64,000 nt of DNA. Source: Mycolicibacterium phlei (GTDB lineage Bacteria > Actinomycetota > Actinomycetes > Mycobacteriales > Mycobacteriaceae). The notes beneath the pieces are model-generated. The model searched no databases and was not told the DNA's origin. It saw only the letters and a program-made list of their open reading frames with translations. Location: positions 4,650,001 to 4,714,000 of the forward strand of contig NZ_CP014475.1 of NCBI RefSeq assembly GCF_001583415.1, read 5' to 3'. The translations under genes were made by a program, and so were the position numbers. This document shows, piece after piece, positions 1 through 3,433 of this stretch; the stretch's first letter is position 1; the number at the start of each line of letters is the position of its first letter.

Positions 1-1024
1 GCCCGATCTGGTCGCCGGAGACTACGAACCGGTGCTCCGGACGGTGTTCGAGGTGGCCGAGGACGTGGGGCTGCCGGTGACGTTCACGCTGGCGATCGGC
101 AACGCCGGCGAGCCGTTCTTCCTGGATGCGCTGACGATGGTGGAGAAGACCAACGCCACCGGCGGGGCCGACGGGCCGCGGGTCACCGCGCAGATCTTCC
201 CGCGCCCGATCGGGCTGGTGCTGGGGCTGGAGCTGTCGGGCAACCCGTTCGTGCTGTACCCCAGCTACCGGGAGATCGCCGGGCTGCCGCTGGCCGAGAA
301 GGTCGCCGAGATGCGCAAACCCGAAGTGCGCGAACGGATCCTCAACGACCAGCCCGCCTCCGACGGGCATCCGCTGATGTTCGCCGCACAGGCCTGGGAC
401 TACATGTTCCCGATGGCCGATCCGCCGAACTACGAACCGTCGCCGCAGGATTCGATCGGCGCCCGGGCGCGGGCCCGCGGGGTGAGCCCGCTGGAGGAGG
501 CCTACGACCGACTGCTCGACGACGACGGTCACGCGATGCTGCTGGTCACCCTGGCCAACTTCCGCAACGGCAACCTCGACACCGTCGCCGAACTGATCCG
601 CCGCGACGACGTGGTCCTCGGTCTGGGCGACGGCGGGGCGCACTACGGAATGATCTGCGACGCAAGCTTTCCCACGTACATGCTGGCGCACTGGTCCCGG
701 GACCGGGCGAGCGGCCGGCTCACGGTGGCCGAGACGGTGCGGGAGCTGACGTCGGTGCCTGCGCGGGTGGCCGGGCTGGCCGACCGCGGCCGGATCGCGG
801 TGGGCTACAAGGCCGACCTCAACGTCATCGACCACGCCGCGGTGCGCTTGCACCGGCCCGTGGTCACCCACGACCTGCCCGCCGGCGGCCGGCGTCTGGA
901 CCAGCGCGCCGACGGCTACGTCGCGACGATCGTCTCCGGGCAGATCATCGCCGAGAACGGTGTGCCGACGTCGGCACGTCCCGGCAGGCTGATCCGCGGC
1001 CGCAGGCCCGCGCCCGCCGCCTAA
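1..1024 (+). CDS. Amidohydrolase family protein, C-terminal part (gene truncated by window start)
   Basis: The reading frame is open from base 2 to the TAA at 1022-1024, so the gene starts upstream of the window; about 340 residues are visible. The protein resembles the C-terminal half of metal-dependent amidohydrolases of the N-acyl-D-amino-acid deacylase/dihydroorotase superfamily. The metal-ligand motif GDGGAHYG lies near residue 210 of the visible part, and a closing segment (GRIAVGYKADLNVID) is typical of the composite beta domain that ends these enzymes. Substrate cannot be told from sequence. The stop overlaps the stop of the convergent PE-PPE-type gene by 2 bases, so there is no room for a terminator between them. 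No signal peptide is visible, but the N-terminus is missing. Confidence 0.8.
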   Translation, partial: PDLVAGDYEPVLRTVFEVAEDVGLPVTFTLAIGNAGEPFFLDALTMVEKTNATGGADGPRVTAQIFPRPIGLVLGLELSGNPFVLYPSYREIAGLPLAEKVAEMRKPEVRERILNDQPASDGHPLMFAAQAWDYMFPMADPPNYEPSPQDSIGARARARGVSPLEEAYDRLLDDDGHAMLLVTLANFRNGNLDTVAELIRRDDVVLGLGDGGAHYGMICDASFPTYMLAHWSRDRASGRLTVAETVRELTSVPARVAGLADRGRIAVGYKADLNVIDHAAVRLHRPVVTHDLPAGGRRLDQRADGYVATIVSGQIIAENGVPTSARPGRLIRGRRPAPAA

Positions 1025-2078
1025 GCGGCAGCCTCGGCGTCATCTGGTCCGGTTTCCTCGGGATCAGTTGTCTCGGAATCGGTTTCGCTCTCGCCGTCGG
1101 CATCGTCGTGCTCCGGATCCGCGGCGGTTTCGGTCATCCCGGGGCTGAACTTGTTGCCGGACTTGACCTTGGCGCCCGAGCCGACCGGGACCGGCTCGTC
1201 GGCCGGCGGTTCCTCGCGGGTCAACTCGAACTGGTCGAGATCGACGTCGTCACGGGCGGTCACCGGCTCGTATCCGCGGCGGTCGTAGGCCGAGTCGATG
1301 ACGGGCCGCAGCAGCCTGTCGACGTCGTCGACCACACGGTCGGGCACGCCGAGCTGGCGCAGCGGCATCGTCAACGGCAACTGCCTGGTGGGCATCAGCA
1401 CGTACAGGTCTGTCCCGCCCTGGCTGTTGACGGCGGCGTCCACCAGCACCCCGGGTTCGGAGGTCGGGTCGACGCCGTTGTAGACGGGGTGGATGTAGAC
1501 CCACCCGGCCACCGCGTTGGCCACCGCGAGCAGGTTCCACGGCCGGTCGGGGAAGTCGGCGAACAGGTCGTACTCCCGGATCAGCCACAGGCTGTCGTAC
1601 GGCGTGTCCGGCGCGGGACCGGGGACGCCGAGGACGCCCTGCAGCACCGGCACCACCGCCGCCAGCCCGTTGCGGGCGTTGGACGGGTCACCGAACAGCA
1701 CGAAACTCAACTGGTCCGGGTCGGGCCGCTGCTCCGCCGGCAGGCTCATCAGGAAGCTCTTGTAGGCGTTGATGACCGGGCACCCTGGCTGATCCCCTGC
1801 AAGACAATCGGTTTCGGCGCACCCATGGAGGCCTTCAGCGATTCGAGGCCGGTAGCGATCGAGCGCCGGAAGTCCAGACTGCCCGGATAGGCGATGCCCT
1901 GGTAGGTCTGCACCCACTCCGGGTGCACGTACGCCGCGATCTGGCCGGGGGTCAGCGCCCCACCGCCGGTACCGCCCAGCATCAGCGCGGTGTGGGCGCC
2001 CGCCGGCGCCACGGCGATCCCCGCGGTGATCGCACACGACGCGGCCGCGACGCAGGCCGCCCTTCTGATGGTCCCCAC
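1021..2078 (-). pseudogene. PE-PPE-domain secreted hydrolase, interrupted by a frameshift
   Basis: Two consecutive minus-strand frames together encode one PE-PPE domain (PF08237, alpha/beta-hydrolase fold). Frame one starts at GTG 2078 with a signal peptide (about 28 residues ending APAGA), then a GGTGGG segment, the YQGIAYPG region and the nucleophile elbow GISQG. Right after QGA the frame slips: the continuation VINAYKSFLMSLP, LSFVLFGDP, the YDLFADFPDRPWNLLA region and LPLLMPLR-like segments lie in another frame, ending at TAG 1021-1023. The join is around 1780-1790, where one extra base is needed to restore frame. The C-terminus carries GAKVKSGNKFSPG followed by an acidic Asp/Glu/Thr tail, shared with the upstream neighbour. 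Either a real pseudogene or a sequencing error; the remainder looks undecayed. Confidence 0.75.
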
Positions 2079-2101
2079 TGCTGCACTCCCCCGGGATTGA
2101 G

Positions 2102-2131
2102 AAGGCCCGGTCCCCGAGGGGACCGGGCCTT
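2102..2131 (-). terminator. Hairpin terminator after the exported-protein gene
   Basis: A perfect 14-base inverted repeat (AAGGCCCGGTCCCC and its complement, 2 bases apart) sits between the stop of the exported-protein gene (2144) and the start of the PE-PPE gene (2078). Read on the minus strand it is followed by CTCAAT rather than a long U-tract, so it is a strong hairpin with a weak tail. It probably separates transcription of the two genes. Confidence 0.65.
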
Positions 2132-2143
2132 TCAGCGGATGAA

Positions 2144-3433
2144 TCAGGCGGTTGCTCCTGCGGACTCGTTCGAGCCCGTGTCCTCGCCGGCTCCGTCACC
2201 GGCACCCTCGTCGTTCGGCTCCGGGTCGGGGGTTTCGGCTTCGGGTGCGTCGCCACCGGTGGTGTCGTCATCGACCGCGGTGGTGCCGCCGGGGACGAAC
2301 TTGTTGCCGGTCTTGACCTTGGTGGTGCCCGGCAGCTTCGGCGCCACGTCGTCACCCTCGGCGTCATCGTCGGCCGTGGCCAGGTCGTCAGCGGTCTCGT
2401 CGTCGGCCGGCGCCCCGTCGTCGCCGGACTTGGCCTCGCCGCCCTCGTCGCCGTCGCCCTCGTCCTCGATGGAGGCCTGCAGTCCGGAGAACTCCTCGTC
2501 GTCCGCGGTGCGGTACACCTCGGAGTCGGACTTCTGCTGCAGCAGCGACGGGCTGGCGAACGGTGTCGGCGCGATCGGCGTCGGCAGCAGGCTCAGCAGG
2601 TTGTCGACGCCGTCGAACACCGCGTCGCGGATCTGCTCGGTGAGCGTGCTGAGCGGCCCGGGCAGCGCGATCAGCGGGTTGGTCAGGATCGTCGCGAGCG
2701 TCTGCAGCAGCCCATCCGGACCCGCCACCTCGTAGACCAGGTTGCTGAGCAGGTTCGGGATCTCGCTCGGGTCACGCAGCGCCGACTCGAAGGTGGCCTC
2801 GAGGGTGGCGGGCAGGTAGCCGAGGTAGCTGACGACGTTGTACGTCAGGTAGATCGGCACGGTCGCGGCCAGGTTCGCGGCCCACACCGTCCGGCCGATG
2901 TCCGACTGGTTCCAGAAGTAGTTGGTCGCACCGATGCCGGGCAGGGCGCTGGCCAGGTTGTCCTCGAGGAAGGCTCCGATCCCGTCGGCGATGTCGTTGA
3001 GCGCGTCGATGATCGGTGTGCTGAGCACCGGCGGCAGCGTGCTGACGATCAGCTCGAGCGAGGTCTTGAAGTCCCAGGCGTAGGTGTAGGCGGGATAGTA
3101 GTCACTGGGATTCAGGTAGCGCTGGACCAGCCAGCTGAACAGGCTCGGGGCGATCGACGGGGTGTTGAGCGCGATCAGCGTAGCGGTCGAGATGTCGAAC
3201 GGCAGCGAGGTGTTCGCGTCGGAGATGACGGTGACGGCGCCGATCGTGCCGTTGACGACATCACCGAAGTTGTACAGCAGGTCGGTGACGATCGAGGTGG
3301 GCGCGACCTCGGCCGTGATGACGTGGGCGGAGCGGTCATCGGGCACGGCCACCACGGCGCCGGTCGAGACGACGCCGGCGGCCACGATGGCTGCTGCGAG
3401 TTTGGTGGGCATTGGGCGAGCGGTAGCGGTCAT
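2144..3433 (-). CDS. Exported mycobacterial protein of unknown function with GNKFxPG motif and acidic tail
   Basis: 429 residues. ATG at 3433 follows a GGGGGAT ribosome-binding sequence. An N-terminal signal-type segment (about residues 10-32, Ala/Val-rich) indicates export. The middle (about 40-290) is hydrophobic/amphipathic, with Leu/Pro/Ser/Asn-rich stretches and no recognised catalytic motif. After about residue 300 comes a long Asp/Glu/Ala/Gly-rich disordered region, then TTKVKTGNKFVPGG about 55 residues from the end and an acidic tail. The same motif and tail occur in the next gene downstream, suggesting a common C-terminal module. I do not recognise a function; surface or secreted localisation is inferred. 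The 137-base AT-richer gap upstream presumably holds its promoter. Confidence 0.75.
   Translation of the reverse strand: MTATARPMPTKLAAAIVAAGVVSTGAVVAVPDDRSAHVITAEVAPTSIVTDLLYNFGDVVNGTIGAVTVISDANTSLPFDISTATLIALNTPSIAPSLFSWLVQRYLNPSDYYPAYTYAWDFKTSLELIVSTLPPVLSTPIIDALNDIADGIGAFLEDNLASALPGIGATNYFWNQSDIGRTVWAANLAATVPIYLTYNVVSYLGYLPATLEATFESALRDPSEIPNLLSNLVYEVAGPDGLLQTLATILTNPLIALPGPLSTLTEQIRDAVFDGVDNLLSLLPTPIAPTPFASPSLLQQKSDSEVYRTADDEEFSGLQASIEDEGDGDEGGEAKSGDDGAPADDETADDLATADDDAEGDDVAPKLPGTTKVKTGNKFVPGGTTAVDDDTTGGDAPEAETPDPEPNDEGAGDGAGEDTGSNESAGATA

Follow-up and report, generated by a model that had tools for sequence, protein, structure and literature searches.

A short motif near the C-terminus of unrelated exported mycobacterial proteins, a candidate recognition site in the envelope

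Why do two neighbouring genes for exported proteins that are otherwise dissimilar carry almost the same short motif near their ends? The question is raised by the window, a stretch of 64,000 nucleotides (positions 4650001–4714000) of the one-contig 5.35 Mb genome of Mycolicibacterium phlei. Exported protein 1 (2144..3433, minus strand; 429 aa) has a signal-like N-terminus and a mostly helical domain up to approximately residue 295, followed by an acidic low-complexity linker, the motif and an acidic tail. The gene 3′ of it (1021..2078, minus strand) encodes a serine hydrolase with a PE-PPE domain. As the original prediction held, both proteins carry the motif on the minus strand: KVKTGNKFVPG in protein 1 (2288..2320) and KVKSGNKFSPG in the PE-PPE protein (1138..1170). 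They are followed by 47 and 38 residues, respectively, up to the C-terminus, close to the 45–55 first given. The tail of protein 1 (2147..2287, minus strand) is acidic and Thr/Gly-rich with a net charge of −14, and that of the PE-PPE protein (1024..1137, minus strand) is acidic with a net charge of −16. In a BLASTP comparison of the two proteins only the motif and the acidic tail aligned (21 of 38 residues identical, E 2e-5); the N-terminal parts gave no alignment, in agreement with the earlier claim that the remainder of the two genes is not alignable. An AlphaFold model of protein 1 built from three sequences was too poor for use (pLDDT 34). The two genes are separated by a G+C-rich palindrome (2100..2131, minus strand) that matches its own complement and is possibly a terminator, absent from the terminator-scan list because it has no T-run.

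The C-terminal part of the PE-PPE gene product belongs to PF08237 (E 1.7e-43; 149 bits against a curated cut-off of 21), the domain of the PE-PPE serine hydrolases (PE16/Rv1430, Chp-type acyltransferases). Unlike these, the window protein has a signal peptide of its own, MGTIRRAACVAAASCAITAGIAVAPAGAHT, instead of a PE or PPE domain. In this assembly its gene is not a single open frame: the part at 1749–2078 starts the gene and 1021–1800, in another frame, finishes it (both minus strand), with a frameshift or indel near 1778. GISQGA, a candidate nucleophile elbow of GxSxG type, is present, and the frameshift falls between it and VINAYK, where relatives run through uninterrupted as GISQGAVVINYEK. 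The frameshift may come from a sequencing slip in a G/C run; alternatively, the gene is a pseudogene.

The DNA encoding the two motif copies is nearly identical, as had been noted (1148–1171 against 2298–2321, one difference in 24 bases). Since codon bias accounts for this near-identity, it is not needed as evidence. In other species the same motif residues are encoded by synonymous codons, for example GGGAACAAATTCGAGCCTGGG in L017, so that a recent DNA duplication of the motif is not needed as an explanation. Because the motif codons change synonymously, selection acts on the protein. This also bears on the idea that tails were shuffled between genes by recombination and that the motif is functionless, reflecting the common descent of a low-complexity tail. 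The adjoining positions of the window genes, their similarity in motif plus tail and the fast change of the tails would fit such an exchange. It is nevertheless an improbable explanation, given that the motif is kept while its flanks drift and its codons change synonymously, and that the same motif stands on unrelated tails (acidic, Thr-rich or basic helical). The gene pair itself was rejected as a conserved operon: the protein 1 relatives L063 and L064 have groEL or an amidohydrolase gene in their vicinity and no PE-PPE gene, nor was a PE-PPE gene seen downstream of the relative L024 (genome G011).

A degenerate DNA pattern for GNKFxPG, GGNAAYAARTTYNNNCCNGG, matches the whole genome at exactly three sites, each of them in the tail of an exported protein. 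The third site (G000:C1:4177003) belongs to a further exported protein, within a cluster of three exported paralogs. The tail of this protein (L005, at 4177 kb) shifts frame approximately 45 residues past the motif, which adds approximately 75 Arg-rich residues; in the alternative frame it stops approximately 52 residues past the motif. Among 148 genomes of the genus the pattern was found 15 times, compared with no match for the reversed-pattern control. Thirteen of these matches fall, in frame, within C-terminal tails of exported proteins; the other two (L018 and L023) are chance matches. The 186 genomes searched from the family's other genera gave three matches, one in SdhA and two in frames that are short or far from the C-terminus. 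Export was called by eye from signal-like N-termini and with a simple hydropathy window rather than a trained predictor. The original prediction was to be given up if the motif were widespread in cytosolic proteins or randomly placed. This was not the case, because 13 of the 15 genus matches and none of the three in other genera lie in exported tails. Among the genomes searched, the motif in exported tails is confined to this genus.

GNKF proved to be one of two flavours in which a wider motif occurs, the other being VRDSLKAEPG. When 39 instances were aligned on their core (one row, APAADPG of L016, is spurious), the wider motif spanned approximately 13 residues, [VLI]-[KRST]-D-[GS]-[NLP]-K-[AFV]-[ETV]-P-G-x-[TV]-G, with the consensus V-K-D-G-N-K-F-E-P-G. 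It is located 31–73 residues from the C-terminus (median 62), and the one exception, at 124, is a frameshifted tail. At the same place relatives of protein 1 have NVVRDSIKVEPGDT (L025, L063) or KIKSGNKVQPGT (L064), and paralogs of the third protein carry VRDSLKAEPGET, VVKDSPKAEPGKT, DLSAGNKAEPGKIG and others. Both flavours occur in the GjpA-like family (L005 and L012; L050, L059 and L062), in the PE-PPE family (L006, L019 and L021; L060) and in the protein 1 family (L007 and L016; L025). A scan for VRxSxKxxPG with strict codons gave 12 matches, one clearly real, against four in the control; it was superseded by a wider-codon scan for the second flavour, in which four of six matches were real.

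To judge the wider motif against chance we used 95 non-redundant complete GjpA-like ORFs. The pattern [GS][NLPIFA]K[AVF].PG was present in 19 tails, whereas 0.07 were expected from shuffled tails, and neither reversed tails nor the N-terminal parts of the same ORFs gave a match. The loosest pattern was found in 26 tails compared with 1.2 expected; as it also matched seven N-terminal parts, it was set aside as evidence. Conservation extended to columns outside the search pattern, namely V/L/I at −3 (2.5 bits), K/R/S/T at −2, D at −1, T/V at +8 and G at +9, and the flanks beyond fell to background, mostly near 0.2–0.5 bits. Across four orthologs 57% of the columns were invariant in the motif, compared with 45% in the N-domain, 27% in the tail and 17% in the linker. 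The features of a short linear motif, that is a conserved motif in a disordered stretch with unconserved flanks, were thereby found, disorder being judged by composition only.

The proteins that carry the motif differ in their N-terminal domains. The main host family was present in 49 of 60 genomes with up to 14 copies. Over residues 11–234 it matches the GjpA outer membrane porin subfamily (NCBIfam NF033942, E 2.6e-14) with 53 bits against a curated cut-off of 100, and so is related to that subfamily without being a member; this likeness concerns the N-domain and not the tail motif. The protein 1 family occurs in 11 of the 148 genus genomes. No Pfam or NCBIfam model matched protein 1 (NCBIfam up to E 10); it gave no match to NF033942, and a profile comparison with the GjpA-like family yielded 1% probability. 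The two families are linked only via L033, which was found by both profiles, and L020 is a relative of the GjpA-like family. L014, L017 and L022 form a third family, which has a single hydrophobic segment at the N-terminus and resembles none of the other hosts. The scan of named genomes returned only two relatives, Mycobacterium yunnanensis and Mycolicibacterium sp. CBMA 234, and neither the PDB sequence search nor the plasmid collection gave a match. Given the L033 link, the number of distinct N-domain families may be smaller than it seems; it is safe to state that at least three unrelated ones carry the motif.

In the GjpA-like and PE-PPE families not every member carries the motif. Approximately 70 of the 95 GjpA-like paralogs are without it, so that it is not required throughout the family, and the PE-PPE hydrolases carry it only sometimes (L006, L019, L021, L060), most relatives of the window protein being without it. 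One could imagine that the motif is an intramolecular strap which pairs with the N-terminal domain of its own host as part of the fold. We consider this unlikely: the motif is indeed conserved within orthologs, but the host domains differ (PE-PPE hydrolase, GjpA-like, L014 family) and the intervening linkers vary strongly in length and composition.

The tails behind the motif are far more diverse than the two window genes suggest. Over the 39 instances, the stretch behind the motif has net charges between −22 and +12, and acidic, Thr- or Ser-rich and basic amphipathic helical tails all occur. The acidic tail, which was originally part of the proposed module, is excluded from it because of this range and because the flanks are unconserved. 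What stands of the transferable C-terminal module is one motif at one place on at least three N-domain families, with GNKF as only one of its flavours. No Pfam or NCBIfam model covers the tails.

Several other features of these tails were observed. Another short motif, G-[HRQGSK]-S-[AG]-R, was found in the last 40 residues of 13 of the 95 GjpA-like paralogs, compared with 0.6 in shuffled and none in reversed tails; examples are KGHSARH and, at the very end, GRGHSGR. Carriers include L012, L015, L068, L072, L104, L106, L108, L110, L132 and L137, and similar strings end the protein 1 relatives L028–L030 and L032. A basic segment resembling an amphipathic helix, for instance QRLRTSLQSAAGQVDRTARNVRDDIKQ, follows KxxPG in L013, L020, L078, L085, L113–L115, L117 and L062, sometimes preceded by PG[QE]R. 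Long Asp-rich repeats, DLDGDLGDDLDGD and DDLADDLADD, occur in the exported paralogs L053 and L049 (G000).

Its position in unrelated exported tails suggests that the motif may serve the mycobacterial envelope as a shared signal for handling or anchoring proteins. We read the shared feature as a real protein-level short linear motif in disordered tails of Sec-exported envelope proteins, and propose with about even confidence that it serves as a docking or recognition site for a putative envelope partner. The extracytoplasmic partner is a step that we infer. With two hydrophobic positions spaced by six (V at −3 and A/F/V at +3) around a charged, Gly-rich centre, and with a Pro-Gly turn, the motif might bind a groove or an edge strand of this partner, and the linker before the motif and the tail after it would act as spacers. 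Different host proteins could thus be held at, or delivered to, one layer of the envelope, the wall or the mycomembrane. The kinship with the GjpA porin subfamily and the presence of lipid-handling PE-PPE enzymes among the hosts suggest the mycomembrane as the probable location.

As the main rival to docking, the motif would signal processing or covalent anchoring: an envelope protease or transpeptidase would cut at or near Pro-Gly, and the 31–73-residue tail would be removed or the protein attached, similar to LPXTG but without a membrane helix. We regard this as possible and clearly less probable. The place near the C-terminus, the varied families and the highly variable tails resemble sorting signals. 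However, no hydrophobic helix follows the motif, the tails consisting of 81–100% polar or small residues without a transmembrane helix; this excludes the classic sortase or exosortase anatomy. Moreover, five of the 39 instances (one of these five being the spurious row) have A, V or L in place of Lys, which argues against Lys as the acceptor or linking residue. A still bolder and rather doubtful proposal covers both docking and processing: mycobacteria might possess a sortase- and membrane-helix-free C-terminal recognition system, in which a motif of the V-K-D-G-N-K-F-E-P-G type is cut or captured by a putative envelope enzyme or receptor that brings lipid hydrolases and porin-like proteins to their place in the mycomembrane or wall. 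It has long been asked by which routes proteins get to the outer membrane of mycobacteria and what keeps them there, and a motif common to porin-type proteins and envelope hydrolases is a direct handle on it.

In PE_PGRS proteins the GRPLI motif sits after the PE domain and before the PGRS domain rather than close to the C-terminus. GRPLI, discussed in PMC7550000 and PMC4229189, is likewise a short conserved motif of exported mycobacterial proteins, but its sequence is different. In the open literature, to which our search was confined, the motif strings were not found, and no mycobacterial C-terminal motif resembling the one described here turned up. The LPXTG signals of sortase substrates are similar in being short, near-C-terminal, ended by Gly and common to unrelated exported proteins; they differ in sequence, the motif here having neither the LPxTG pentapeptide nor a hydrophobic helix and short basic end behind it. 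PEP-CTERM, GlyGly-CTERM and similar tails of exosortase or rhombosortase type are also C-terminal modules on many exported paralogs and families. PEP-CTERM and GlyGly-CTERM, however, need a membrane helix beside the motif, whereas the tails studied here have none and match no NCBIfam model. The motif is undescribed in the literature searched; it would work like known C-terminal recognition motifs but is a member of none of the systems tested.
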